Part shown: piece by piece, positions 48,588 to 64,000 of the stretch | How positions within the stretch are numbered: position 1 is the first letter of the stretch | Layout of the letters: every line of letters begins with the position of its first letter | Origin: Leptolyngbya sp. SIO1E4 | GTDB taxonomy: Bacteria; Cyanobacteriota; Cyanobacteriia; Phormidesmidales; Phormidesmidaceae | Assembly (NCBI GenBank): GCA_010672825.2 | Contig: JAAHFU020000001.1 | Location: forward strand, 496,001 to 560,000 | Length of the DNA stretch: 64,000 bases | Reading direction: 5' to 3' | Notes under the pieces: generated by a model | Seen by the model: the letters and a program-made list of their open reading frames with translations, nothing else | Databases searched by the model: none | What the model was told of the DNA's origin: nothing | Translations under genes and position numbers: made by a program

Positions 48588-51296
48588 CTAGCGCCAGCTG
48601 CCGACCAACACGTAAGGAGCCCAGTATCGGGGGCGACCTGGATATTGTTCCATAAGGGTTACTTGCGCCTGCCGCAGGGCTTCGGCACGGCTGATGCCGG
48701 GTTTGCCCAGGTTTGCATATAGGGTTTCAGCAAAGAGTACGCTGGCGGTATCGTCTACGCTCCAGAGGGTGGCGATGGTGCTTCTGGCTCCAGCTTGTAC
48801 GGTGGCGCCGGCGATGCCGAGCACTTCGCGGCTGTCTCCGGTTGCGGTTTTGCAGGCGCTGAGGATGAGCATTTCTAGATGGGTCGCTGCCTGGCGACGG
48901 CTTTCAAACACCTGACCCAACGTGTCGATATCGATACGACCATCGGCGGCCAAAATGAACGTGTTTTGGCGATCGCTGCCGAACTGGCCATGGGTGGCCA
49001 GGTGAACGATGGTGTAATCTGTCTCGCTGAGTTGGCGATTGAGGGCTTCACGGGTGAAGGCTTGATCCTTCAGCAGGGTTGTGGATAGGTTCGTGGCTGC
49101 GATCGTGTCGAGTTCAACATTGACGTTGGGCAATGGCCCATAGGTGCGAGCTTCCGCTGCAGGGGGATGGGTGAGGCTGGCGGCTAAGACCTGCAGCTGG
49201 TCTTGGGGGGGCAAGGTCTGAGGATCTCGCACTTCTAAGCCCAGGATCAGCGATAGGGCATATTTTTCAACCAGAAAACCTTCGCCATCATGGAGGGTAG
49301 CCATGGGGATCAAGCGCAGGTCACCATCCAGAACAAAAATCAGCGTTTTGATGGCGTCTGGGGATAACAGACCCTGGTCAGCCGCGGGCTTCAGCAACCA
49401 GTTATACAGCTGTTCTCCATAGGGTTGGGCGTCTACGCCGCTGGTGAGCGCAGTCCGAAATTGCCGCAGGGTGGTATCCACCGTTTGGCGGGAGGCAGGC
49501 GCCGCATAGTGTAAAAGATCATCTTGCTGGGGGAGCTTCAGCACCAGCTCCAGGCGATCTTTCAGAAGAATGGCGTACACCACGGCAGCGGTGGTGTCTT
49601 TCTCATTCACCACCTGATCAATGCTGACGGTTTTTTCAATACAGGCCGCCTGAAAGAAGTTTTCTAATTCCGCCACCTGCAGCGCTTCCATGACATCCCG
49701 AGCTTGCCGTAGCCGAGCCTGATTCTGGTCTCTATTGGCGCTAACTTGGGCTTTGTTCTGGGCACTGGCTCGCGCTTCGGTTTGCAGGTCGGGGACGGAT
49801 GCTAATAACAGTTCGACTAACTCGCGATAGACAGGTTCTACGCTTTTGCGGAAGGAGAATTGCACATCGGCATTGGCGGTTACCAGGTCGCTGCGAAGAC
49901 CCTTCAGAGTTTCAAAGGCATTCGTGTAGGCGGCGATCGCGTCATCCGACTGGGCTTGCGTTTTGAGGATGCGCCCCAGCTGCCACTGCCAGCGGTAGCT
50001 AATGTCATCGGCCCGAATCGGTTGGGCCAGAGCCAGGGCCCGGCGGGAAAGTTCCTCGGCGGCGTCCCATTGGCCGGTTTGCTCATAAATGTGGCCCAGG
50101 GTGCCCAGAACTAACGACTGACTCCGCACATCGCCCAGGGCCTCTGCTTGGGCTTGAGCCGGGACGAGGAGTTCAGCCACCTCTGCCCAACGAGGAATGG
50201 CGCGATCGCGCTGCTGTTTAAGGGCAATCAAATTCTCGGCCAGTCCGGTGTAGCCATAGATGGTGGTGCGACTGGGGGGGAGTTGAGACAGCCGTTCCTG
50301 AATGGTGGGATAAAAGGCGACGGCCTGCTCCCACTGGGCCACCACCGGATGGGTGAGTAATCGCATCAAGTTAAGGCGAGCCTGGATGCCCAGTTCCCCC
50401 TCTGCCAGATCCACCACTTGTTGGTAGTAGCGGAGGCTGGCCTGAGCGTGTCTTTGCGCCAGTTCGCGGCCTTTGCGTTCAAAGGTGGTGTTGAATTTTC
50501 CCTGCTCCAGGTTCCCAAGGCTGAGGGTGGCTGCAGCCATTAATGAATTGTTTTTTAATCCTTGCCCGATCGCGAGGCTGGTCTGTAATGCATCTCCAGC
50601 TCGGGCTAAATGCCCTGTAGCCCGGAGGCTATCTCCCAACTGCCGTAGAATAGTTGCTTTCATCGCCGAGTCGGGTTCGTCAGCCAGGTCGTCGGCCAAA
50701 TCTTCCAGGGTGCGAAAGACTTGCTGGAAAAGCCCTTGGGCCTGCAGGGCCTGAGCCTGATGCAGACGACTGAGGGCCTGCCGTTGCGTATCACCTAACT
50801 GGGTGTAGAGTTCAGCGGTTTGTTTCCAGGTTGTGAGGGCGGCGTCAGATTCCCCCCGAGCAAAGTAGAGTTGTCCTTGCACGTCTAACATTTGGGCCTG
50901 GACGCCCTGGGGCACGGCCTGACTTTCCAGGCGTCCCCAGGCTTGGGTGAGGGCATCCTCGGCTCCCGTCCAGTTTCCCAATTGCTGATAGATCAGCGAG
51001 AGATTGCTCAGGGCGATCGCCGCTCTGAGGGTGTCCCCCTGGGTTCGGTACTGTTGCTGGGCTTGCTGTAGCAACGTTGCAGCGGCTTGATATTGCCCCT
51101 GGTCGTAGGCCACTTGGGCCTGTTGTTCTGGGTTTGCCTCAGCTTGGGCCAACTGAACCGGTGACTGGGTGGTTGACCAAGTCGCTGTTGGCGTGGCGGC
51201 TGGGAGATGGGCGATCGCGGGACGTCCTGTTGTCACACACAGGATCAAAGCCAACAGCCCTAGGAGCCAGTATCGAAATTGCTTGAATCTGCCCAT
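48588..51296 (-). CDS. Exported TPR-CHAT protein (caspase-like peptidase)
   Basis: 902 residues. A signal peptide (FRYWLLGLLALILCVTTGRPAIAH, cleaved near residue 30) is followed by about 500 residues of TPR-like helices. The C-terminal third is a CHAT domain with the His of VHLATHGQF (His769) and the Cys of MLILSACKTATG (Cys815), so the caspase-like dyad is intact; it ends in the usual APYVLVGSWR. A secreted location is deduced from the signal peptide. It is the last gene of a minus-strand set with TpsB (33 bases upstream) and TpsA, an association seen in other cyanobacteria. It may process the secreted TpsA or act in envelope signalling; the substrate is unknown. Confidence 0.92.
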   Translation of the reverse strand: MGRFKQFRYWLLGLLALILCVTTGRPAIAHLPAATPTATWSTTQSPVQLAQAEANPEQQAQVAYDQGQYQAAATLLQQAQQQYRTQGDTLRAAIALSNLSLIYQQLGNWTGAEDALTQAWGRLESQAVPQGVQAQMLDVQGQLYFARGESDAALTTWKQTAELYTQLGDTQRQALSRLHQAQALQAQGLFQQVFRTLEDLADDLADEPDSAMKATILRQLGDSLRATGHLARAGDALQTSLAIGQGLKNNSLMAAATLSLGNLEQGKFNTTFERKGRELAQRHAQASLRYYQQVVDLAEGELGIQARLNLMRLLTHPVVAQWEQAVAFYPTIQERLSQLPPSRTTIYGYTGLAENLIALKQQRDRAIPRWAEVAELLVPAQAQAEALGDVRSQSLVLGTLGHIYEQTGQWDAAEELSRRALALAQPIRADDISYRWQWQLGRILKTQAQSDDAIAAYTNAFETLKGLRSDLVTANADVQFSFRKSVEPVYRELVELLLASVPDLQTEARASAQNKAQVSANRDQNQARLRQARDVMEALQVAELENFFQAACIEKTVSIDQVVNEKDTTAAVVYAILLKDRLELVLKLPQQDDLLHYAAPASRQTVDTTLRQFRTALTSGVDAQPYGEQLYNWLLKPAADQGLLSPDAIKTLIFVLDGDLRLIPMATLHDGEGFLVEKYALSLILGLEVRDPQTLPPQDQLQVLAASLTHPPAAEARTYGPLPNVNVELDTIAATNLSTTLLKDQAFTREALNRQLSETDYTIVHLATHGQFGSDRQNTFILAADGRIDIDTLGQVFESRRQAATHLEMLILSACKTATGDSREVLGIAGATVQAGARSTIATLWSVDDTASVLFAETLYANLGKPGISRAEALRQAQVTLMEQYPGRPRYWAPYVLVGSWR

Positions 51297-51329: not shown

Positions 51330-53255
51330 CTAAAAGAATGAATAGCCCAGGGAGAAGTAAATTCCCTGTTCTTGGAGCGTATCGTTATCGCCATCGGTGC
51401 TGATGAGCGGGATGCCAAAATCTGCCCTGACGTCTAAATTTTCCACCTGTAGCAGTAGCCCGGTGCCGATGCTTAATAGGCTGTTGGGGTCAGGGTCGGC
51501 TTCTTGGGTATTCCACCCCACGCCGCCTTCAATGAAGGGGGTCACTTGCAAAAGGCCGTCGCTGTTGCGATCGCGCCAAATTGGCAGCCGCACCTCTAAA
51601 GAAAGATTGGCCCCGTTATCGGTTAGCACTTCATCCTGGCTATAGCCCCGCACTGTAGCCTGGCCGCCCAAGCCGTAGCGCTCCAACGTTAGCAGCGGAT
51701 CAGGGGTGAGCTGTATGCTCCCCCGCAGCAACAAGGGGGTGTCTGGCCCCAACAACTGCACCCATTGCCCCTGCCCCAACCAGGAAAAGAACTGACTATC
51801 GGGAATATCGCCGCTGTTGACGGTGGAGCCCAGGGCATCTAACCCCAGGTTGAATTGCGATCGTAGGGCAATCACCTGCTTCGGGCTACGCTGGCTCCAT
51901 TCTTGGAAAAATCGCAGCGCCGTCACCGCAATGCGACCCTCATCATTGGCCCCGGCTGACAGAGGAAAGCCACCTATGTCGGCAATGCCCAGAAAAGTCT
52001 GGGTGCCCTGGCGAGAGGCGATCAGCCCCAGGGCCAGTTCTTGGGTGGGGGTTTGGATTACAGGCTGCCGCAGGGTGAGTTCCGCCACCGTGGCGTTGGA
52101 GGTCACCTCCAATATCTCAAAGGGAGATTCCAATACTTCGCTGCCGGTGTATCCCAAGGAGAAGGATAGGGTGCCGTTGTAGGGGTTGATGGGCAGGGTA
52201 TAGGCAAAATCCACGTCCTGACTGCCTGAGGTAATGTTGTAGCCCAGGGTCAGGCCATCGCCAAGGCCCGTGAGGTTGCGCTCAGTCAATTGGATTTGGT
52301 TGCGGATGCTGCCCACGCTGGGGTTGCGGTTGTTATCGAGGGTGTAGCGCGCGCTAAAGCTGGTAGCTTCGGTAACGGAAACCACCAGCAGGTTGGTGCC
52401 GGGGCGGGTGCCTGCTTGCAAATCGGCGGAAATATTATCAATTAAGGGATCCAGCCGCAGGAGCTGCAGTCGTTCTAGCAGGCGATCTACCTGCAGAGGT
52501 GCCCCTGTTCCTAGATTGATGCGGCTACTGACATAGCCGGGTAGGAGTCGCTGCGTACCCTCTATCACAATCTCTTCTACACCGCCTTCCACCACTTGGA
52601 TTTGGACGACACTGTCTTGAATGGCTTGGGGCGGAATAATCGCACCAGAGGTAATGTATCCGTTGTCCAAATACAGCTGGCTGATGGCATCCCGCACCGC
52701 CCGTACCTCGGTAAAGGTAATCGGGCGATCCACATAGTCAGTCGTGATGGTTTCAAAGTCAGCCTCAGAAAACACCGTGCTGCCCACTACCTCAAACCGC
52801 TGAATAACGATGGTCGCGTCGTCGCCGGGAAGGTTGGTGTCAGGAAGCGAGGGTGGGGTAATGTCGGGGCCCAGCAGTTCTTCAGGGGTGGGGAGGACAG
52901 GAAGCGGGGCCTCTTCAGGCAGGGGATCGAGACTCGGAGAAGCACCGTCGGTGTCGGGAAGGTTAGTTTGGGCCAGAACAGCAGGCGGTTGGGGGGTGAG
53001 TTCTAGTGGCCCCAATGGTGAATGCTCTGGTGTTTCTATTGAGGGCGGTGTGACCGCTGGCCAGCTCTCCAAGAATGAGGACACTGGCGGGGTAACTGCA
53101 GACGGTAAGGGTTTTTGAGCAGGGGCAGCGGCCCTGGCTGCAGACCCACTGAAACTTGGGGTAAAGGGACTTAACAGAAGCAGTAACCCGCCGATCGCGG
53201 AGCCGGTTATCGGCAAGTTGAGAGGGTTAACACCATGACAATGGGATTGAAGCAT
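51330..53255 (-). CDS. ShlB/FhaC-type two-partner secretion transporter (TpsB)
   Basis: 641 residues. Signal peptide (LPITGSAIGGLLLLLSPFTPSFSGSAARA), a Pro-rich linker of about 100 residues, POTRA domains (IVIQRFEVVGSTVFSEADFETI..., VVQIQVVEGGVEEIVIEGTQRLLPGYVSSRI), then an Omp85-type beta barrel of about 380 residues with the conserved RGYSQDEVLTDNGANLSLEVRLP near 545. It ends GIYFSLGYSFF, an aromatic outer-membrane signature. It should export the TpsA protein encoded immediately upstream across the outer membrane. Confidence 0.94.
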   Translation of the reverse strand: MLQSHCHGVNPLNLPITGSAIGGLLLLLSPFTPSFSGSAARAAAPAQKPLPSAVTPPVSSFLESWPAVTPPSIETPEHSPLGPLELTPQPPAVLAQTNLPDTDGASPSLDPLPEEAPLPVLPTPEELLGPDITPPSLPDTNLPGDDATIVIQRFEVVGSTVFSEADFETITTDYVDRPITFTEVRAVRDAISQLYLDNGYITSGAIIPPQAIQDSVVQIQVVEGGVEEIVIEGTQRLLPGYVSSRINLGTGAPLQVDRLLERLQLLRLDPLIDNISADLQAGTRPGTNLLVVSVTEATSFSARYTLDNNRNPSVGSIRNQIQLTERNLTGLGDGLTLGYNITSGSQDVDFAYTLPINPYNGTLSFSLGYTGSEVLESPFEILEVTSNATVAELTLRQPVIQTPTQELALGLIASRQGTQTFLGIADIGGFPLSAGANDEGRIAVTALRFFQEWSQRSPKQVIALRSQFNLGLDALGSTVNSGDIPDSQFFSWLGQGQWVQLLGPDTPLLLRGSIQLTPDPLLTLERYGLGGQATVRGYSQDEVLTDNGANLSLEVRLPIWRDRNSDGLLQVTPFIEGGVGWNTQEADPDPNSLLSIGTGLLLQVENLDVRADFGIPLISTDGDNDTLQEQGIYFSLGYSFF

Positions 53256-53297: not shown

Positions 53298-53397
53298 TAT
53301 AGCCTTGTTTGTGCACTTGAATCCAGTGCATCTGAGCCAACACAGGGTCTAGGGTTTGGGGTCTAAGGTGTGCTTTACCCGAATGCACACCGCTATA
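53298..53397 (-). mobile_element. TA-flanked MITE-like element, copy F
   Basis: On the minus strand: TA-TAGCGGTGTGCATTCGGGTAAAG ... CCCCAAACCCTAGACCC ... AACAAGGCTA-TA, 100 bases with flanks. It occupies most of the 137-base gap between tpsA and tpsB, and its left end supplies the tpsA stop codon (53395-53393). Confidence 0.85.
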
Positions 53398-56300
53398 AGG
53401 ATTCGGGTTGGACGGTAGCTGCACATAGCCCAGCAGGCGGGAGGCCGGAGTGCTGGGGAGAGGTAGACTCAACGATGGCCACGAAGTAGACATTCCCCTC
53501 AGCATCAACCACCATGTCCTGGGCTTCGACTAAGGTGCCTTCAGTCTCTGGTACAGGGGGTGGGCTGACAGCAGCAGTTGAGGTGTCGCCATCGTAGGTA
53601 ACCCAGGGAATGTCAATGCCCGCAGCAGTGCCCAGGTCACTGGGGCTCGGGGGCAAGCCGCCACGACCGGTGATAACAAATTCACTTGGGTTATCGGTAT
53701 TGCCCAGGCCACAGCCCGCGACAATTTGGTTGGTGCGGTCTGCTAAATCAACCGGGAGTTCAGTGAGCCCTCGAGCTGGGTCAACATCTAGGGTATTCAG
53801 AACAATCTCTCCTTGCAAGCCAAAGGCTGAACTGGCGCTGAGGTCATTGCTCTGGTTGGCTCGCAGTTGGGCAGTTGTGAAGCCATTGGGTTCGGTAAAA
53901 CCAAAAATGTTGATGGCTTCCACCTCAATGCGCCCACCATTGCCGCCTACGGCATTGGCAATGATGTCGTTGTTTTCATTGGGGCCAGCGATCAAAAAGT
54001 CTGTGGAGATGGTCACATTACCACCGTCTCCTCCATTGGGATTGGTGGACTCGGCGTTAATGAAGCTACCTTCCCGCAGGATGATTGCATCCCTGCTTCT
54101 TAAGTTGACGTTGCCCCCCCCGGGTAGTGACTCACTGGTGGCAGACAGTACGACGCCGTCATCAAACAGCAGGTCAGTGCCTAGGATATTGAGGTCACCG
54201 GCCAGCCCGCTATTGGCGCCGATTGCACCAACGGTCAGCTCGCCCTGTCCTTGAATGGTCAGGGGGCCGTCGTTTTGTACGGTGAAGCTGCCACCTCGGC
54301 CACTGCCGGTTGTCGCGGCGGCCACTCGTCCCCCATTGGCAAAGCTCAGCTGAGCGGTATTGATCCGAATGTCGCCGCCCGCGCCAGCTCCGCGGGTCGA
54401 GGCCGACAGTTGAGTGCCGTCAATGGCCACTTGGGCCGCGTTGATGTCTAAATCACCGGCTCGCCCATTGCCTTCGGTGTCGGCGGTAATGGTACCGGTG
54501 CCTTCAATGGCGAGGGCATTGGGTGCATTAAATGTCAGGTTGCCGCCCCTGGCTTCGCTAGAGGTGGTAGCAGAAATCTCGGTGCCTGCCCCCAAGTTGA
54601 TGCGGGGGGTATTGACCGCGATGCTGCCTCCCTCACCTTCGGCGTTAGTGCTCGCAAAAATACCGCTGCCCGCGCCTTGAATCGTCAGGCTACGATCCGC
54701 ATTGACCCGAATGTCACCACCTGATCCGGTACCGCTGGTTGAGGCCGATAGTCGAGTGCCGTCAATCACGATTTGGGTTGCGTTGACATCCAAATCACCG
54801 GCTCGTCCGCCGCTTTCAGTATCTGCGGTAATGGTCCCGGTGCCTTCAATGGTGAGAGCATTGGGCGCATTAAACGCCAGGTTGCCGCCCCTGGCTTCGC
54901 TAGAGGTGGTAGCAGCGATCGCGGTTCCTGCCTCCAAGTTGATGCGGGGGGTATTCACCGTGATGCTACCCCCCGCACCTTCAGCATTAGTGCTGGCAAA
55001 AATACCGCTGCCCGCACCTTGAATCGTCAGGCCGCGACCCGCTTCAACTTCAATATTTCCGGCAGCACCCGTGCTGGTTGTATTGCTATTGATTGCGCTA
55101 TTAATCAGCGTGATATTGCCAGGACTCGCTGTTGTGATGTTTCCTGCAGCGCCAGGCCCGTTGGCATTGCCAAGAATTTGGACGGTGTCGAAGGTTAGGT
55201 TGCCCAGACTGGTGATGTTGGTGTTGCCAGATGGGCCAAATCCATCTGTACTCAGGGTAATAAACTCAGTAGGGGAAATTGGGTTTCGAATACTGATAGT
55301 GCCACTGGTCGTCAAGTCTACGTTCCGGGCAGTTAAATCGCCAGTACCTTGAATTTGCACATCACCAGAAATGCCGTCTGAAGAGAGCGTTTGCACATCC
55401 AGACCGGATATCACTTCCCTCGCGACTAGTGTGACCTGTCCCCCATTTCCGGAGATCTTCCCGTCTGTCTCGGCCACCGCAAAAGCAAAGACATTGGCAT
55501 TCGTTTGAATACTCCCGTCAGGGTTAACGACAACCACGGCACCGGCACTACCTTGAATGTTGCCGTTAGGGGCACTGAGGACAATTGCTCCCCCATCCCC
55601 AGCGTTACCATCACTGGAAAACGATGACGAGGCTAAGTCTTGATCAACGGTAATGTTGCCAGAGGCGGAAGCAATCTCAATATTTCCCCCATCCCCCGCA
55701 TTTCCTGAGACTGGAATAAACGAAGTCCCTGGAGGAGAGTTTACGATTGAATCGGCAAATGAGCCTGAAAACAGAGAGCTGCGGATTGCAACGTCACCTG
55801 AAATGGACGTGAGCGAAATATTGCCACCATTGCCAGCATCCCCTGAAACGGAACTTGACATGTAGCCTGAGTTAGGCGGGGCGTTACTATAGGACTCAAT
55901 CGAGAATGAGCCTGAGAATGAATCCAAGGTGTTATTTGCTGTGATATCGCCTGATATGGAAGAAATAGAGATATTTCCCCCATTACCAGCATTCCCTGAG
56001 ACAGAGCTTGCATTCTGAACTAAAGATGAACGCGCTCTTGAAGCCGAATTTGATAGTACCTGTCCATTCAGAGTGATATCACCTGAAGTGGAAGCGATCG
56101 CAATATCCCCACCATTACCAGCATCCCCTGTTACCGTAGTTTCCCTTGAATTTGATGTCGAGCTTGAGGCCAAACGATTGTCGATGGTAATGCTGCCCGA
56201 GGTAGAGGATATTGAAATGTCTCCCCCATCCCCCGCATCTCCTGAGGAGGATTGAATCGATCCATTCGATAACGAACGCGTATCCAGAAAATCCTTAAGT

Positions 56301-57916
56301 GTGATGTTCCCGGAAGTGGAAGCAATGGAAACGTTGCCACCATTGCCAGCATCCCCCGAATCTGCCAACGGATCTGGAGTTGAAAATGAAACCGCACTCA
56401 AATAGTTATTGAGGGTGATATTCCCTGAAGTTGAGGTGATCGAAATATTTCCCCCATTTCCGGCATCCCCTGAGTTGGCTTCCGACTGCGATCGCGAATT
56501 CAACCTCCCATTAGTTGTGATGTCCCCTGAGATAGAGGAAATGGAAATGTCTCCGCCATTCCCGGCATCGCCTGCCGGTGACGTTGCAAACGCAAGGATA
56601 TCACCCGCAATGGAGATATTGCTATCAGCTACGAGGATAATTGGCCCCCCGTCACCACCACTGCTATCAGAGGTATCAATACCACCCACCACAATGCTGC
56701 CCGGTGGTTGCCCTGCTACCGTACCAGCTGTAAAACTCGTGTTCAGGTCACCAACGTTGGTTTGAGGTACATTGGCCGCACCCACTGAATCAACCCCAGC
56801 ACGCAAAATCACAGCCGAGCTGCTGTTGAGTAAAGCAGCATCAGGATCGGTGGCGGGTACCCCGATATCTGGGCCAGTGATGCGAATATTGCCTGCCTGA
56901 ATACTGCCGGTCGCCTCGACCTTCAATGCCACTCCGGTGTAGTCACCAAACACCACATCGCCATCCGCGAAAATAATCGGGTCGTAGAAACTGACAATGT
57001 TGCCAGGGCCACCCGCTAGATTTAGAAACTGCAAACTCCCGCCACTGTCAAAATGAGCATCCCCAGAAATCACCCCATCACTGATGAGGGTGAGGTCGCC
57101 CCCACTGACGAAAGGTGTTTGTTCCAGGTGCTGCAGCGTCCAAATATCAACCCCTTGATTGCCCTGAATGGTTAAATCGCCTCCAGTCCTGGCCACAAAA
57201 GCGTCTGTCGCCGTATCCCGAATTGTGACGGTGTCTTGAGCCTGCAGCATCAAATCTTGACCCGCTAGCACCTGGCCTTCCAAATACAGGTCATTTCCCA
57301 GAAGCGTCAAGTCTTGACCTGCCTCCAAAATTCCAGTGCTGGTGATATCTCCTTGGGGTGGGTCATTAAACTGCACCCCCAACGGCACGCTTACACTCAA
57401 CAGCTCATTCCCCGTTGGCATAGCGCTAAACTCACTGCCATCGGCAAAGGTAAAGCTGTTGGCGGTACTGGTGATAAAAGAACCGCTGACATCTAGCCGG
57501 GCATTGGGGCCAAAGATCACCCCATTGGGATTTAGCAAGAACAGGTTGGCAGCACCGTCAACGCCCAGCAGGCCATCGATATTCGAGACATTGCTGCCGG
57601 TTACCCGACTGAGGATATTTTCGATGCCGATGGGGTTTGCAAAATATACTGACTGCCCCGTGTTGACATTGAAATCGGCAAAGCTGTGAAAGAGATTCGC
57701 CCCTCGGGTGGCCCCCCCTTCAATCAGGTCAGCCGGTAGCCCTTGCACGGTAGCTTCTGGGGTGACGATGGAGCTTTCTGCCCCCAGGCTATTGTCTGGA
57801 ATTAATTGGGCAACCCCTGGAACAGGAAACAAAGCACTATAGCCCAATAGCGTGATTGAACCCCCTACCACCCCAGTTAGAACGCTGGCGGTACGTCTGC
57901 TGTCCCATTCCTTCAT
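53393..57916 (-). CDS. Filamentous haemagglutinin-type secreted protein (TpsA)
   Basis: 1507 residues. Signal peptide (residues 1-35) and an N-terminal TPS domain (about 40-240) with ADLIEGGATRGANLFHSFADFNV, SNIDGLLGVDGAANLFLLNPNGVIFGPNARLDVSGSF. The middle (about 470-860) has eight or nine repeats of 30-55 residues built on SGDAGNGGNISISSTSGNITL. Further on is a 114-residue tandem duplication (TPRINLEAGT...SEARGGNL...DGTRLSAST). The fold is expected to be a long right-handed beta-helix displayed at the surface. The last 40 residues carry VVDAEGNVYFVAIVE, PPAGLCAATVQPESL, a C-terminal end shared by many cyanobacterial TpsA proteins. Stop codon lies in a mobile repeat. Confidence 0.93.
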   Translation of the reverse strand: MKEWDSRRTASVLTGVVGGSITLLGYSALFPVPGVAQLIPDNSLGAESSIVTPEATVQGLPADLIEGGATRGANLFHSFADFNVNTGQSVYFANPIGIENILSRVTGSNVSNIDGLLGVDGAANLFLLNPNGVIFGPNARLDVSGSFITSTANSFTFADGSEFSAMPTGNELLSVSVPLGVQFNDPPQGDITSTGILEAGQDLTLLGNDLYLEGQVLAGQDLMLQAQDTVTIRDTATDAFVARTGGDLTIQGNQGVDIWTLQHLEQTPFVSGGDLTLISDGVISGDAHFDSGGSLQFLNLAGGPGNIVSFYDPIIFADGDVVFGDYTGVALKVEATGSIQAGNIRITGPDIGVPATDPDAALLNSSSAVILRAGVDSVGAANVPQTNVGDLNTSFTAGTVAGQPPGSIVVGGIDTSDSSGGDGGPIILVADSNISIAGDILAFATSPAGDAGNGGDISISSISGDITTNGRLNSRSQSEANSGDAGNGGNISITSTSGNITLNNYLSAVSFSTPDPLADSGDAGNGGNVSIASTSGNITLKDFLDTRSLSNGSIQSSSGDAGDGGDISISSTSGSITIDNRLASSSTSNSRETTVTGDAGNGGDIAIASTSGDITLNGQVLSNSASRARSSLVQNASSVSGNAGNGGNISISSISGDITANNTLDSFSGSFSIESYSNAPPNSGYMSSSVSGDAGNGGNISLTSISGDVAIRSSLFSGSFADSIVNSPPGTSFIPVSGNAGDGGNIEIASASGNITVDQDLASSSFSSDGNAGDGGAIVLSAPNGNIQGSAGAVVVVNPDGSIQTNANVFAFAVAETDGKISGNGGQVTLVAREVISGLDVQTLSSDGISGDVQIQGTGDLTARNVDLTTSGTISIRNPISPTEFITLSTDGFGPSGNTNITSLGNLTFDTVQILGNANGPGAAGNITTASPGNITLINSAINSNTTSTGAAGNIEVEAGRGLTIQGAGSGIFASTNAEGAGGSITVNTPRINLEAGTAIAATTSSEARGGNLAFNAPNALTIEGTGTITADTESGGRAGDLDVNATQIVIDGTRLSASTSGTGSGGDIRVNADRSLTIQGAGSGIFASTNAEGEGGSIAVNTPRINLGAGTEISATTSSEARGGNLTFNAPNALAIEGTGTITADTEGNGRAGDLDINAAQVAIDGTQLSASTRGAGAGGDIRINTAQLSFANGGRVAAATTGSGRGGSFTVQNDGPLTIQGQGELTVGAIGANSGLAGDLNILGTDLLFDDGVVLSATSESLPGGGNVNLRSRDAIILREGSFINAESTNPNGGDGGNVTISTDFLIAGPNENNDIIANAVGGNGGRIEVEAINIFGFTEPNGFTTAQLRANQSNDLSASSAFGLQGEIVLNTLDVDPARGLTELPVDLADRTNQIVAGCGLGNTDNPSEFVITGRGGLPPSPSDLGTAAGIDIPWVTYDGDTSTAAVSPPPVPETEGTLVEAQDMVVDAEGNVYFVAIVESTSPQHSGLPPAGLCAATVQPESL
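54430..55040 (-). repeat. 342-bp internal tandem duplication within tpsA
   Basis: AAAAATACCGCTGCCCGC at 54656 and 54998, and GAGGTGGTAGCAG at about 54560 and 54905, mark two near-identical in-frame units of 342 bases (114 codons). Differences are scattered substitutions, mostly synonymous-looking. Confidence 0.8.
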
Positions 57917-58524: not shown

Positions 58525-61500
58525 ATGAACCTATTTCAAGACGCCTTCATTTCCTATGGTCGGGCTGACAGCCGCGACTTTGCCGCTAAGCTTAATCAGC
58601 GGCTGACTGAAGAAGGGTTAGAAGTTTGGTTCGATTTTGATGACATCCCCCTGGGGGTGGACTATCAAAAACAAATTGATGACGGTATTGATAAGGCTGA
58701 TAACATCCTCTTTGTTATTTCGCCCCATTCCGTCAACTCTCCGTACTGCGGTTTGGAAGTGGATCTGGCCATCAAGCGCGGCAAGCGCATTATTCCTTTG
58801 CTGCACGTTGAGGAAATTAGCCACGATACCTGGCAGCACCGTAACCCCCACGGCACGGCGGCTGACTGGGAAGCCTACAAAGCGGCTGGCAAACATTCCA
58901 GCTTTCCCAACATGCATCCTGTGATTAGTAAAATCAACTGGGTGTATTTTCGGGAAGGCATTGATGACTTTGAGCAGTCTTTACAGAGCCTCTTAGAGCT
59001 CTTTAAGCGAGATCAGCTCTATGTTCATCAACATACAATTCTTCTGAATCAAGCTCTGAAGTGGAAGCAAGACAATCGGCTAGCACAGGATCTGTTGGTG
59101 GAAGCGCCTTTGAAAAAGGCAGAAGCCTGGTTGCAGACTCGTTTTCGAGACCGACAGCCACCCTGCACCCCGACTAAACTGCATTGCCAATTCATTACAG
59201 AAAGCCTCAAGAATGCTAATGATGGCATGACTGAGGTTTTCTTGAGCCATGCTGAAGAAGATCGAGATACCCTGGAGGCCATTTACGAATCCTTGACTCG
59301 GGCGGGCTTGACCGTTTGGACTAGCTGGCAAGACATCCAAACCGGGGCGGATTTTCAAGCAGCCATTGAGCACGGTATTGAAGCTGCCGATAACCTCATT
59401 TACCTGATCTCACCGGATTCGTTGCGATCGCCCTGGTGTCAGCGGGAAATTGCCTATGGGCGATCGCTCAATAAGCGGATTATTCCCATTCTGATTAAGC
59501 CGATTGATCTAGAAAACATCCCTGAAGATTTGCAAAAACTTCAGTTTATTAACCTGACCGATAATCAACAGGCGGTAGATTATCTCTCGGATGAACAAGA
59601 CTTGCTCAACGTTCTGAATCAAGATGCGGCTTACTACCGAGCCCACAAATTATTGCTGGTAAAAGCACTCAAATGGGAACGACAACTCCGTAATCCTAGT
59701 ATTTTGCTCCGGGGATATGCCCTCCGCCTCACCGAAGCCTGGCTCAAGGTGGCTCACAAGCATGCCTCCCACCGTCCCTTGGCGATCCAAGAAGAATTTG
59801 TTCAAGAAAGTCTGAACCAACCGTCAGATGTCCGGCTGAATGTGTTTGTGGCCAGTGATTCCAAGGATTTAGAATTTGCCAGAAAGCTCAACGAAACCTT
59901 GCAAATTCAAGGAGAACAAACCTGGTTCGAGCCGGATAAAACCGCCCTGGGGTCAGATTATGCAACCGAGATGAAAGAGGGGATTGAAAGGGCAGAAAAC
60001 TTTATCTTTGTGGTTTCCCATGAGGCGCTAGCGGACACAACCCTGTTGGAAGGATTACAGATTGCCCAGAGTCTTTCCAAACGAATTATTGCCGTTTCTT
60101 ATCAAACCCTAGAGCAATCGGAAGTTCCCTCCACCCTGGCGCAAAGTCCCTGGGTCGACTTCAATACTGGGGAAGATTTCATGAGCAGCTTTGGGACGCT
60201 GTATCGCATCCTGAAAAGCCATCCTCAGCACATTCAAGCCCATACCCGGCTGTTGATCCGAGCCTTAGCCTGGGAGCAGGCAGACCGAGATGACAGTGCC
60301 CTGCTGCGGGGCAAGGAACTCACTCGGGCAGAGCAGTGGCTCAAACAGGCGCAAACCCAAACGCCAAAACCCTCCGACCTGCAGTTGGCGTATCTAACCA
60401 GTAGCCGTGAGCTGTCTTTTCGCAAGGTGAAGCCCCGATCGGTGGTGGGGCTGAGCGTGGGGACAACCTTATTGGTGTTGGTGGCTCGCATCCTCGGGCT
60501 GCTGCAGGGCTTTGAACTGTTCGCTTATGATCACCTGCTTCGGCAGCGCCCTGCCGAAGCCCCAGACGATCGCTTTTTAATGGTCACCGTTGACGACAAG
60601 AGCGGTTCTTTTGTGCGAGAGGGCTTGATTGAAGGTCGGTATGAACCCAGCATTGGCACCATTCCCGATGATGCTCTTGACCAAGCGCTGACGGTGTTGA
60701 CCGATAACCAAGCACGGCTCATTGGCCTAGACTTTTATCGAGATTTTCCGGCCAGTGAGCGTTTGGCCGCAACCTTGGAGGACACCGACAATTTAGTCAC
60801 CGTTTGCAAGGCCAGCTACGAAGGCAGCGGGGTTCACAAAGCGCCAGAAATTCCGATCGAGCAGGTTGGCTTCAGCGATTTAGTGCCAGATCCCTCTGAT
60901 GGCACCACCTATGTCCGTCGCCATTACCTCATGCAGGGAGCCGATCCCGAATTTTGCGAGACCTCAACCTCTCTGAGTCTGTCTTTGGCAAACCGCTATC
61001 TAGAACAGGAAGGCGTTACTTTCAGCAACCCTGAGAAACCGGAGGGCGGGTTCAGCAGTAACAGCCTTCAATTGGGGGAATTGACGGTGCCAAACCTCAA
61101 CTTGCTGCGCGGCCCCTACTATCCCTCCGGACTAGACCTGACCCTGTTTGACGGCTATCAAACGCTGGTGAACTTTAGAGCCGCCCCCCACCCAGAAACC
61201 GGCAAAAAAGACCCCAATCACTTTGCCGCTGTTGTTTCCTTAGAAGACATCTTGACCGGAGCCGTCTCTCAAGAACTGATTGAAAACCGTATTGTCCTGA
61301 TTGGCTATACCGATTATGCCGATCGCAACGCCGACTATTGGGAAACCCCCCACGGCGAGATGCCTGGAGTCTTTGTGCAAGGGCAAATGGCCAGTCAATT
61401 GATTAGCGCCGTCCTAGACGAGCGATCGCTGGTTCGCTGGTGGCCCTTTGGTCAAGAAGTGCTGTGGATTTTTGCCTGGGCTGTTGCAGGCGGCGTCATT

Positions 61501-61689
61501 GTTCGCCAGGTCATGCGCCTACCCCGCCTCGCCGCCGCTACCACCCTCGGCATCGGCATCCTGTACGGCAGTTGCTTCGCCGCCATGGTCTACGGCACCC
61601 TCTGGATTCCCCTAGTGCCCCCCCTCGCCACCTTCGCCCTCACCGCCGGAAGCGTCGCGACCCTCAACTACCGACTGCGAAAACCGTAG
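58525..61689 (+). CDS. Triple-TIR CHASE2 membrane receptor
   Basis: 1054 residues. Three TIR domains in a row: 1 (about 4-125, FQDAFISYGRADSRDFA, SPYCGLEVDLA), 2 (about 234-350, TEVFLSHAEEDRDT, SPWCQREIAYG), 3 (about 437-550, LNVFVASDSKDLEF). The first two keep the Glu in the SPxCxxE motif that is catalytic in TIR NAD hydrolases; the third has lost that motif. Helical linkers follow each TIR (WKQDNRLAQDLLVEAPLKKAEAWL and similar). A membrane helix (about 638-658) leads to a CHASE2 sensor domain (about 663-950), then three membrane helices (about 971-1048). Topology: cytosolic TIRs, extracytoplasmic CHASE2. TIR-TIR contacts or NADase output controlled by an external signal is inferred. Confidence 0.9.
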   Translation: MNLFQDAFISYGRADSRDFAAKLNQRLTEEGLEVWFDFDDIPLGVDYQKQIDDGIDKADNILFVISPHSVNSPYCGLEVDLAIKRGKRIIPLLHVEEISHDTWQHRNPHGTAADWEAYKAAGKHSSFPNMHPVISKINWVYFREGIDDFEQSLQSLLELFKRDQLYVHQHTILLNQALKWKQDNRLAQDLLVEAPLKKAEAWLQTRFRDRQPPCTPTKLHCQFITESLKNANDGMTEVFLSHAEEDRDTLEAIYESLTRAGLTVWTSWQDIQTGADFQAAIEHGIEAADNLIYLISPDSLRSPWCQREIAYGRSLNKRIIPILIKPIDLENIPEDLQKLQFINLTDNQQAVDYLSDEQDLLNVLNQDAAYYRAHKLLLVKALKWERQLRNPSILLRGYALRLTEAWLKVAHKHASHRPLAIQEEFVQESLNQPSDVRLNVFVASDSKDLEFARKLNETLQIQGEQTWFEPDKTALGSDYATEMKEGIERAENFIFVVSHEALADTTLLEGLQIAQSLSKRIIAVSYQTLEQSEVPSTLAQSPWVDFNTGEDFMSSFGTLYRILKSHPQHIQAHTRLLIRALAWEQADRDDSALLRGKELTRAEQWLKQAQTQTPKPSDLQLAYLTSSRELSFRKVKPRSVVGLSVGTTLLVLVARILGLLQGFELFAYDHLLRQRPAEAPDDRFLMVTVDDKSGSFVREGLIEGRYEPSIGTIPDDALDQALTVLTDNQARLIGLDFYRDFPASERLAATLEDTDNLVTVCKASYEGSGVHKAPEIPIEQVGFSDLVPDPSDGTTYVRRHYLMQGADPEFCETSTSLSLSLANRYLEQEGVTFSNPEKPEGGFSSNSLQLGELTVPNLNLLRGPYYPSGLDLTLFDGYQTLVNFRAAPHPETGKKDPNHFAAVVSLEDILTGAVSQELIENRIVLIGYTDYADRNADYWETPHGEMPGVFVQGQMASQLISAVLDERSLVRWWPFGQEVLWIFAWAVAGGVIVRQVMRLPRLAAATTLGIGILYGSCFAAMVYGTLWIPLVPPLATFALTAGSVATLNYRLRKP

Positions 61690-61852: not shown

Positions 61853-62788
61853 ATGACCCAACTACATTTCAACTCAAAAACTTATTGGCGCGTTTTTCGA
61901 AGCGGTGTGTTAGCTTTCGCGATCGCCTCTCCGCTAACCTTGACCGTGACACCCCCAGCTGAGGCGGGCTTAATCGACAGCGTGCGGCGTATTTTGAGCG
62001 GTGATACGGGTAGTCGGGCATCGGGCCGGAGTCGGGGTGGGGCCACCCGAGATGAAATGTGCACCGTTGGTCAAAGGGCTCCTGAGGCTGCAGAAAACCC
62101 TGAAACCAGCAGCTCACAGCTGGTTGTCCTGATCCCAGATGCGCTGCAAAAAACCACCCAGGCAAATCCTGAACTCTTTTTATATGTGCCGTTTGGCCGC
62201 AGCGCCCAAAACATGACGCTGGTGTTTGAGTTGGCCACGAAAGAGACCGCCACTTCCCGGCAAGTGATTGCTGGCCCGATGAATCTTCCTTTACCGGCTG
62301 AACCTGGTTTAGTCCGATTTCAATTGCCGCCTGAAACGCCACTCGCGATCGGAGAAACATATGAATGGACTTTTCGCCTCGTTTGCCAGGAAACCCAGCC
62401 AACCCCTGATCCAGATCTGACTGCAGCTCTTCCTGTTGCAGGCATTGGGAGTGGCCCCATTGATATCCACGAGATTCAAATTCCAGCCCTCAACGGCGTT
62501 GCTGACGGGTCGAATAAAGCGACTTTGCCTGCGATAAGCGTGCGTCAAGAGGTGTTTGGTAACATTCAGCGGGTTGATGCTGAGGAAACCGCCAAGCTAA
62601 ATGCAGCACTGATGAATAGCGACCCTAACACCCGCTACGAAACGTACTTAGATTACGATGTCTGGCTCGATATGGTGTCGGCCCTAGCCGCAGCTGGTCC
62701 CTCATCAGATTGGGCAGACCTGCTGGCAGCATTTGATTTAGGAGATATCGAAGACCCAACCCCCTACACTCTCTCCCCTAGCTTCTAA
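61853..62788 (+). CDS. DUF928 family exported protein
   Basis: 311 residues. A signal peptide (VLAFAIASPLTLTVTPPAEAG, AEA cleavage near residue 39) precedes a DUF928 domain of about 200 residues: LVVLIPDALQKTTQANPELFLYVPFG, VRFQLPPETPLAIGETYEWTFRLVC, and YLDYDVWLDMVSALA. The function is unknown. In cyanobacteria DUF928 genes often sit beside CHASE2, CHAT and two-partner secretion genes, as here. A strong AGGAG lies eight bases before the ATG. It is likely periplasmic and may belong to the same pathway as the CHASE2 receptor. Confidence 0.9.
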   Translation: MTQLHFNSKTYWRVFRSGVLAFAIASPLTLTVTPPAEAGLIDSVRRILSGDTGSRASGRSRGGATRDEMCTVGQRAPEAAENPETSSSQLVVLIPDALQKTTQANPELFLYVPFGRSAQNMTLVFELATKETATSRQVIAGPMNLPLPAEPGLVRFQLPPETPLAIGETYEWTFRLVCQETQPTPDPDLTAALPVAGIGSGPIDIHEIQIPALNGVADGSNKATLPAISVRQEVFGNIQRVDAEETAKLNAALMNSDPNTRYETYLDYDVWLDMVSALAAAGPSSDWADLLAAFDLGDIEDPTPYTLSPSF

Positions 62789-62790
62789 CG

Positions 62791-63264
62791 TTAGTGGCCT
62801 TGGGTTTCAGTCTCAGGCAGCAGCATTTCAGACAAAATAACCTTCAGCGTAAAGGGACAGGTTGAGGGAAAAGTTCTTAGATCAAGTCCTGTTTCAGCGG
62901 CGGCCAGCTTACAGGCGTTGGCATAACAGCGTTCCCGTTCAGCCTCTAAATAAGGCTGGAGGCTGGGGCTATCCTCTAGCAAATCTTGAATCCTGAGTCG
63001 TTGTTCAATGATGGTGCTGCGCCAGCTATTGCTGCGGTGCTCTGGTTGGTATTTCCATTTCAGTAAATGCATAAGCAGCACTTCTAATCGACTTTTGAGT
63101 GCCCGCTTGTCAGAACGCCCCAAGCTTTCGATCTCCTCTGCCAGATTATCGATGTCTAAATCTTGCCAGCGACCCTGTCTCAGAGCGGTTGCCATTGCCC
63201 GAGTCCAATCATAAAAGTCTGTTTCGTAGAGGTTGGAAACCGGTTGAAACTGGGGGGATGCCAT
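62791..63264 (-). CDS. DUF29 family protein
   Basis: 157 residues from ATG 63264 (GAGGG upstream). NLYETDFYDWTRAMATALRQGRWQDLDIDNLAEEIESLGRSDKRALKSRLEVLLMHLLKWKYQPEHRSNSW is the DUF29 signature. The family is very abundant in cyanobacteria, helical, and of unknown function. A longer frame to 63318 exists, but the family begins near YETDFYDWT, so the shorter start is adequate. Its stop is 2 bases from the DUF928 stop (convergent). Confidence 0.9.
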   Translation of the reverse strand: MASPQFQPVSNLYETDFYDWTRAMATALRQGRWQDLDIDNLAEEIESLGRSDKRALKSRLEVLLMHLLKWKYQPEHRSNSWRSTIIEQRLRIQDLLEDSPSLQPYLEAERERCYANACKLAAAETGLDLRTFPSTCPFTLKVILSEMLLPETETQGH

Positions 63265-63283
63265 CGGGATTGACCCTCGCAGA

Positions 63284-64000
63284 ATGAGGTTAGTCGCTGC
63301 TTGCCCAAATCCTAGCACTCTGTACGGCGAGGCATTTGGGCCAAAACCTGAGTGGAAGAAGCTAGCGAAATGTTTACAGGAAAGGGACTTTCAACGCAGT
63401 CGCGAATACAGTGGAAGCAACTTTTTTCAGATCCTGTTTACCTGCCTGCCTGTGCCCAAGTCAGCGGACTATCGCCAACGTCTAGCGCTGATTAATCGGC
63501 TGTCGTCGCTACCTGCGACCCAGCTAGATGCTGTCATTCTTGCACTCAAGCCAACCCAGGGGCTCATTCCCCCAGTAACAGCAAAGCCAGGAGACCGCGC
63601 CTCTGCCTTGTTTGAATGGGCCGAAAGCCCGATTGGGTGTGGGCTAGAAAAGCTAGAGCACGTTCTTGAAGAAGTGCTGGCGGCGGCTCAAGCCAACCCT
63701 GGTCAGTCAACATCGGAGGAGACTGCAGCGAATCGTCGGGATGCCCACATTAGGGGATCCGTAGACAACTCCAACGTAGTATCGGGGGATGGCAACCGTA
63801 TTGAAATCAACTATTACGGACTGCCAGAAACCAAACCCAAGCCCACCCGCAAAGACCGCAACGAACAGCTCCTGATCGATGCGGTGTGGGCAGAGGTCGC
63901 AGACCGCCTGCGGCAGTCCCTGCACAACGCCATTTTGATTCATTTGGATATGGCAGAGCAGCGCAGCCAGGTCAGCCGCCCCTGGGACAGCCAGCTTCGC
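63284..64000 (+). CDS. STAND-type protein N-terminus with effector-associated-like domain (runs off right edge)
   Basis: 239 codons open to the edge of the window, starting ATG 63284 (MRLVAACPNPSTLYGEAFG). Residues about 20-60 are helical and basic. Residues about 62-132 (YRQRLALINRLSSLPATQLDAVILALKPTQGLIPPVTA...RASALFEWAESPIGCGLEKLEHVLEEVL) resemble the N-terminal adaptor domains (effector-associated type) of cyanobacterial NACHT, NB-ARC, WD40 and pentapeptide proteins. GSVDNSNVVSGDGNRIEINYYG is the linker commonly found after such domains, and RLRQSLHNAILIHLDMAEQ begins the segment preceding the NTPase. The ATPase core and effector are outside the window. Start uncertain because no ribosome-binding site is clear. 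Confidence 0.6.
   Translation, partial: MRLVAACPNPSTLYGEAFGPKPEWKKLAKCLQERDFQRSREYSGSNFFQILFTCLPVPKSADYRQRLALINRLSSLPATQLDAVILALKPTQGLIPPVTAKPGDRASALFEWAESPIGCGLEKLEHVLEEVLAAAQANPGQSTSEETAANRRDAHIRGSVDNSNVVSGDGNRIEINYYGLPETKPKPTRKDRNEQLLIDAVWAEVADRLRQSLHNAILIHLDMAEQRSQVSRPWDSQLR

Follow-up and report, generated by a model that had tools for sequence, protein, structure and literature searches.

A conserved multi-TIR-CHASE2 receptor of filamentous cyanobacteria and its genomic neighbourhood

To our knowledge, the known TIR systems of bacteria sense intracellular events (phage products, nucleic acids, cyclic nucleotides). A gene in the DNA analysed here, a window of 64,000 nucleotides from Leptolyngbya sp. 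SIO1E4, raises the question of whether bacterial TIR domains can also be placed under a sensor that faces outwards. An initial annotation had read this gene as encoding a membrane receptor with three TIR-like domains, a membrane helix, a CHASE2 sensor and three C-terminal membrane helices. We put the probability at roughly 0.5 that its product is an inner-membrane CHASE2 receptor that switches the NAD chemistry of its first two TIR domains (TIR-A and TIR-B) in response to an envelope or exoprotein cue.

Architecture, topology and distribution

The open reading frame (58525-61689, plus strand) runs through 1054 codons without interruption. In the 1054-aa protein, Pfam detects TIR_2 in three stretches, far above the cut-off (E 3.3e-69 in all), and CHASE2 at residues 648-990 (E 5e-49); these are the only families that exceed the cut-off. 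An AlphaFold2 model built on an alignment of 53 sequences (mean pLDDT 87) contains three TIR folds with a helical segment behind each of them, and after these a transmembrane helix, the CHASE2 domain and three further transmembrane helices. Thus, Pfam and the model both bear out the domain order of the initial annotation. The helical segment of about 60 aa, which the initial annotation had not noted, is repeated after every TIR in the secondary structure of the model. The pTM is only 0.59, so the placement of the domains relative to each other in the model is unreliable. The gene, the sensor and the membrane helices are located as follows:

58525..61689, plus strand: multi-TIR-CHASE2 receptor gene, 1054 aa (ORF calling, Pfam, AlphaFold2 model)
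60433..60492, plus strand: first transmembrane helix, residues 637-656 (AlphaFold2 model)
60466..61494, plus strand: CHASE2 domain (Pfam 648-990), predicted periplasmic (Pfam; domain model pLDDT 90.6)
61447..61680, plus strand: three C-terminal transmembrane helices, residues 975-995, 999-1022 and 1031-1052 (AlphaFold2 model)

According to Pfam and the models, CHASE2 is flanked by one N-terminal and three C-terminal membrane helices, as in CHASE2 receptors. Basic residues lie at three sites, namely before the first helix, in the VRQVMRLPR loop between helices 2 and 3 and in the C-terminal RLRKP. This pattern fits a predicted topology with the TIRs inside and CHASE2 outside, and supports the earlier proposal of a transmembrane receptor with cytoplasmic TIRs. 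Near the gene, we found no RNA elements and no sigma-70-type promoters, and the promoter count was lower than in shuffles, a result that carries no information.

A search for this architecture across cyanobacteria, as the initial annotation had suggested, yielded about 45 multi-TIR-CHASE2 proteins with three to five TIRs, all from filamentous cyanobacteria. The protein is found at full length in about a dozen of 59 related genomes. A scan with one genome per species added many more, all from cyanobacteria (Leptolyngbyaceae, Nostocaceae, Calotrichaceae, Coleofasciculaceae, Oscillatoriales and others); the sample was drawn by conserved peptide patterns and from relatives of this genome, so that other phyla are hardly covered. 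Local profiles count 37 proteins with three TIRs, eight with five and one with four, plus one split gene, before the removal of a few duplicate loci. They also detect 42 proteins in which the same three TIRs are followed by WD40 repeats, and four such tri-TIR-WD40 paralogues are present in this genome. We reject carriage by a phage or mobile element, as viral_contigs yielded no relative.

That the gene is a chance fusion or an assembly chimera can practically be dismissed. We found nothing in favour of such an artefact, and a chance fusion is ruled out by full-length orthologues, which come from isolates as well as MAGs, represent several families, keep the domain order and are 45-73% identical. 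In an alignment of six, the identity is 46-73%. The architecture is real and conserved. We class it both among the CHASE2 receptors, here with TIRs as the output, and with TIR signalling, here under an outside sensor. We found no description of it in the literature searched, with subscription papers and domain databases lying outside the search. One paper names both CHASE2 and the TIR domain, but mentions CHASE2 in another context, together with caspase (PMC8195603).

TIR units and their candidate catalytic glutamates

The three TIR units, their helical segments and the residues at the catalytic glutamate column are located as follows:

58534..58809, plus strand: TIR-A core, residues 4-95, with the fold extending to about residue 161 (Pfam, local profile; VIA)
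58756..58758, plus strand: E78, TIR-A residue proposed as catalytic Glu and conserved in all family members (alignment)
58969..59217, plus strand: helical segment after TIR-A, residues 149-231 (model secondary structure)
59227..59499, plus strand: TIR-B, residues 235-325 (Pfam, local profile, VIA)
59446..59448, plus strand: E308, candidate catalytic Glu of TIR-B (alignment)
59626..59814, plus strand: helical segment after TIR-B, residues 368-430 (model)
59833..60105, plus strand: TIR-C, residues 437-527, degenerate (Pfam, local profile, VIA)
60052..60054, plus strand: G510, at the catalytic-Glu column of TIR-C (alignment)

In the model, the TIR folds lie at residues of about 5-160, 236-365 and 438-565. 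Compared as the model ranges 4-161, 235-368 and 433-569, all three match solved TIRs in VIA-align with Z 15.8-20.9 and an rmsd of mostly 1.6-2.5 A, among a match set that includes SARM1, SPARTA TIR-APAZ, AbTir, TLRs and MyD88. For instance, TIR-A matches the SARM1 TIR with Z 18.5, TIR-B reaches a Z of up to 20.9 and TIR-C (range 435-567) one of 18.7. The comparison with solved TIRs, including NADases, thus identifies all three N-terminal domains as TIR folds and rules out the flavodoxin-like fold. The nearest solved sequence to TIR-B is Cat1, a CRISPR-associated TIR (E 1.6e-13).

The NADase-type glutamate of helix alpha-C (in the CxxE motif) is present in TIR-A (E78) and TIR-B (E308) and absent from TIR-C (G510). 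E78 aligns with the glutamate of the SARM1 KEI motif, E642, and with the AbTIR-type glutamate. Among the CHASE2 forms, the column holds a glutamate in 46/46 TIR-A, 44/46 TIR-B and 25/46 TIR-C units, compared to 42/42, 40/42 and 39/42 among the WD40 forms. The difference between the two forms in TIR-C has a Fisher p of 4e-5, uncorrected for kinship. Where TIR-C lacks the glutamate, its BB-loop region is 0.36 identical to the WD40 consensus, compared to 0.53 for the rest. The candidate NADase glutamates that the initial annotation had pointed out in TIR-A and TIR-B are thus supported as residues under strong conservation. Its view of the third TIR as degenerate holds for the 1054-aa protein. As a family-wide rule it is ruled out, since 25 of the 46 CHASE2 forms keep the residue and the erosion is therefore lineage-specific. 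In the 1054-aa protein, the eroded TIR-C may act as a scaffold or cap beside the membrane, with TIR-A and TIR-B as the units that would process NAD.

This fold and this glutamate position are shared with the TIR NAD hydrolases SARM1, AbTIR, SPARTA TIR-APAZ and Cat1. Unlike these, the TIR-CHASE2 proteins have three TIRs on one chain under a transmembrane sensor, and their NADase activity is a candidate one. In the alignment, the same glutamate also occurs in the TLR2 and TLR15 TIRs. As these are scaffolds, the motif would be required for catalysis without being enough for it, and conservation is no proof of catalysis. The TIRs might therefore form a binding platform without enzymatic activity, onto which a CHASE2 signal recruits other TIR proteins of the cell by TIR-TIR contacts, similar to TLR and MyD88. 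The folds match TLR, TRR-2 and MyD88 as well as NADases, TIR-C has been retained despite its degeneration, and potential partners are numerous, with 35 TIR_2 matches in this genome. We nevertheless consider such a platform unlikely. The glutamate is found in 88/88 TIR-A units and is nearly invariant in TIR-B while it decays in TIR-C, which is the pattern expected if TIR-A and TIR-B are enzymes; the association with SLOG and DUF4231 genes described below also speaks against a platform.

The CHASE2 sensor, its origin and its neighbourhood

CHASE2 receptors usually carry their output C-terminally of the membrane helices. Such an output is absent here, as the TIRs are N-terminal and the chain ends after the last helix. 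This genome also encodes four CHAT-CHASE2 proteins and one kinase-CHASE2 protein with an N-terminal output; the layout is thus a known CHASE2 sub-layout. The initial annotation is correct in general that the usual fusion partners of CHASE2 are kinases or cyclases, but the nearest relative here is CHAT-CHASE2. When the CHASE2 model was compared to solved structures, no clear match emerged and nothing exceeded a Z of 6.8.

The CHASE2 domains of 43 TIR-CHASE2 proteins fall on one side of a branch with a support of 93, adjoining CHAT-CHASE2. As they form one clade that is sister to CHAT-CHASE2, the TIRs apparently replaced CHAT. In a tree of 290 TIR units, every unit clusters with its own type, in one group each for TIR-A (support 0.97), TIR-B (1.00) and TIR-C (0.86). 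This grouping holds for the CHASE2 and the WD40 architectures and for the five-TIR forms, whose order is A-B-A-B-C. We thus conclude that the TIR module is one old unit of fixed order. A TIR-A/B tree in which the CHASE2 forms are held together is rejected (AU p 0.00035), and well-supported branches force at least six label changes. A single TIR-CHASE2 lineage for all domains is thereby rejected for the TIR part and kept for CHASE2. The plain reading of these trees, which are quick ones, is a single replacement of CHAT by a TIR module, followed by exchange of this module with TIR-WD40 paralogues.

The apparent exchange partners, the tri-TIR-TM-WD40 proteins, share the A-B-C module, the helical segments and the single membrane helix, but have WD40 propellers in place of CHASE2. 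The CHAT-CHASE2 receptors of cyanobacteria share the sensor and the N-terminal output, whereas their output is CHAT (caspase-like) and not three TIRs. Both served as comparisons for the genes that surround the TIR-CHASE2 gene, which include the following:

48588..51296, minus strand: CHAT-TPR protein with a signal-peptide-like start (gene mapping)
51330..53255, minus strand: ShlB/FhaC-type outer-membrane transporter, TpsB (Pfam, gene mapping)
53393..57916, minus strand: TPS (two-partner secretion) exoprotein, divergent neighbour, part of a conserved block (Pfam, gene mapping)
61853..62788, plus strand: DUF928 protein with a signal-peptide-like start, directly downstream (Pfam, gene mapping)

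The full set of CHAT-TPR, ShlB, TPS and DUF928 genes is thus present at this locus. We mapped the genes around 45 TIR-CHASE2 loci and used 39 TIR-WD40 loci as a control. At least one block gene occurs at 40/45 TIR-CHASE2 loci compared to 2/39 TIR-WD40 loci (p 1e-15, uncorrected for kinship), and at least two kinds of block gene at 34/45 compared to 2/39; at the other five TIR-CHASE2 loci, the block is absent from the stretch examined. The block is therefore tied to the sensor and not to the TIRs. At 32/45 TIR-CHASE2 loci and at none of the 39 TIR-WD40 loci, the receptor gene is directly followed by a DUF928 gene in the same orientation. As DUF928 is common in these genomes, with ten copies in this one, it is the adjacency that counts and not the presence. 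Among the four CHAT-CHASE2 loci in this genome, two have TPS genes nearby and all show a CHAT-TPR match, which CHAT alone can give.

A related arrangement is found under the species code NOSP7, which we take to be Nostoc punctiforme. It consists of a five-gene array with a CHASE2 sensor, a DUF928 gene and two WD40 genes (PMC5587647). Furthermore, in a cAMP system of Sinorhizobium meliloti, the CHASE2 cyclases CyaD1, CyaD2 and CyaK sense the plant protein uL2 via the outer-membrane beta-barrel NsrA, a parallel in receptor, barrel and protein signal (PMC13001267). Their output is an adenylate/guanylate cyclase, unlike that of TIR-CHASE2. We know of no report of NsrA as a TPS transporter.

In the receptor reading that we favour, the periplasmic CHASE2 domain would sense an envelope cue, most likely one handled by the neighbouring TPS exoprotein, ShlB barrel, DUF928 protein and exported CHAT-TPR protein. 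A change in CHASE2 would pass via the helix at residues 637-656 and rearrange the cytoplasmic row of TIRs, and TIR-A and TIR-B would then act on NAD. The outcome may be NAD depletion or an NAD-derived messenger. The same neighbourhood could instead reflect a housekeeping regulator of envelope or adhesin, in which CHASE2 would keep track of two-partner secretion and the TIRs would adjust how the exoprotein is expressed or secreted, with no role in defence or cell death. This would agree with the strong tie to the TPS/ShlB/DUF928/CHAT-TPR block and with the closest CHASE2 relatives, which carry CHAT and in two of four cases here adjoin TPS genes. We rate it as rather doubtful, as TIR and CHAT are typical effector domains in conflict systems (PMC7159879, PMC8195603) and the family is also tied to SLOG and DUF4231.

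Association with LSDAT and DUF4231, and possible outputs

The SLOG family in question is LSDAT, which is named after TRPM channels. Compared to the PDB, the LSDAT protein is similar in sequence to TRPM2 (E 8e-9), which is an ADP-ribose-gated channel. A gene for LSDAT_prok and/or DUF4231-lysozyme adjoins 10/45 TIR-CHASE2 loci and 6/39 TIR-WD40 loci. Beside TIR-CHASE2 genes, such neighbours occur in Nostocales and in Leptolyngbya/Adonisia with differing gene orders. Across the 59 genomes, LSDAT is present in 20/21 genomes with multi-TIR proteins compared to 8/38 without (size-adjusted p 4e-6), and DUF4231 in 21/21 compared to 12/38 (size-adjusted p 3e-6), while a NiFe-hydrogenase control gives a size-adjusted p of 0.11; as the genomes are related, these p-values are too small. 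Neither LSDAT nor DUF4231 adjoins the gene of the 1054-aa protein. The sole LSDAT gene of this genome adjoins another gene, which encodes a single-TIR WD40 protein, and its link to the 1054-aa protein is thus by family only.

The association lends indirect support to a messenger. Where they are present, the TRPM2-like SLOG protein would be the likely reader and the membrane protein DUF4231 the likely effector. Alternatively, the TIRs may simply deplete NAD+ and thereby kill or arrest the cell in an abortive response without any messenger. LSDAT and DUF4231 would then be no more than frequent companions of large genomes with many conflict genes. NAD-depleting TIR effectors are well established in bacteria, and the lack of an LSDAT neighbour at this gene would fit. 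Plain depletion nonetheless seems somewhat improbable to us: the LSDAT association remains strong after adjustment for genome size whereas the hydrogenase control does not, and in two cyanobacterial groups LSDAT and DUF4231 genes lie physically beside TIR loci.

Extended to the whole family, the messenger idea would have CHASE2 sense a TPS-exported protein, which may be a kin, non-kin or damage signal, and the TIRs produce an NAD-derived messenger that acts through the TRPM2-like SLOG protein on a membrane effector. This would amount to a bacterial TIR immunity triggered by an extracellular signal, in which both the sensor (CHASE2 or WD40) and the output (TIR or CHAT) can be swapped. We offer this chain tentatively and think it unlikely to hold as a whole. 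The link to the TRPM2-like SLOG leads to the specific prediction that the TIRs make an ADP-ribose derivative, which LSDAT would recognise. If an outside-facing sensor is coupled to TIRs next to an operon for a secreted protein, filamentous bacteria would have TIR signalling at their cell surface, which could be relevant to kin recognition or to contact-dependent death.

Signalling from TIR to SLOG is known from Thoeris, and TIR-SLATT neighbourhoods have also been described (PMC9503650). By association only, the TIR-CHASE2 family resembles Thoeris (a ThsB TIR and a SLOG-bearing ThsA) in combining a TIR with a SLOG-family reader. However, the SLOG here is LSDAT (TRPM type), is paired with DUF4231 and is often not adjacent, and the TIR is part of a membrane receptor. 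Beside the TIR-CHASE2 gene, no ThsA (SLOG with a SIR2 or a membrane/Macro part) was recognised. The locus is not a Thoeris system, nor is it a Toll-like receptor by descent. The likeness to Toll-like receptors appears to lie in the layout of outside sensor, membrane helix and inside TIR, without common descent of the whole: the TIR-CHASE2 proteins have no leucine-rich repeats, their TIRs are N-terminal and in tandem, and they have four membrane helices.

CHASE2 and TIR proteins of the genome and its relatives

The 8.2 Mb genome of Leptolyngbya sp. SIO1E4 encodes 20 CHASE2 proteins and yields 35 TIR_2 matches, which are both very large repertoires for one genome. The CHASE2 region of the receptor under study (58525-61689) gave a confident structure model (pLDDT 90.6), for which we found no clear match among the solved structures compared. 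One relative, Dolichospermum sp. UHCC 0259, has its TIR-CHASE2 gene divided between two ORFs (L148:4096-7382, plus strand); either this copy is broken or the sequence contains an error. Three loci encode tri-TIR proteins of about 540-850 aa:

L154:7595-10138, tri-TIR protein
L160:7935-10328, tri-TIR protein
L164:8001-9623, tri-TIR protein

Neither CHASE2 nor WD40 was found in these proteins; they may represent additional sensor types, or else be truncated.

LSDAT genes beside TIR genes

We observed that a gene set adjoining TIR-CHASE2 recurs, complete or partial, at eight loci (L105, L106, L109, L121, L130, L131, L133 and L163). Its members are LSDAT (TRPM-type SLOG), a fusion of DUF4231 with a phage-lysozyme domain, and two further proteins, one of 111 aa and one, unknown, of ~410 aa:

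L105:3427-7867, plus strand, the set in Anabaena lutea FACHB-196

DUF4231 is a predicted membrane effector, and a phage-lysozyme domain is an odd fusion partner for such a protein.

The sole LSDAT gene of the Leptolyngbya genome lies elsewhere, with a single-TIR WD40 gene directly downstream:

L186:9258-10016, minus strand, LSDAT
L186:5982-9188, minus strand, single-TIR WD40

Together these genes are a candidate compact TIR-SLOG pair. The N-terminus of the single-TIR WD40 protein reads as a winged-helix-like stretch.

Neighbouring genes of the receptor

48588-51296, minus strand, CHAT-TPR protein
62791-63318, minus strand, DUF29, adjoining the NACHT gene
63284 to past the window end (L055:2285-4672), plus strand, NACHT NTPase, 795 aa

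Because the CHAT-TPR protein starts with a signal-peptide-like sequence, we suggest that this caspase-like protein is exported to the periplasm. The NACHT NTPase carries an extended series of hydrophobic repeats (GGLIVGLIGG type) and is possibly a STAND-type conflict protein.
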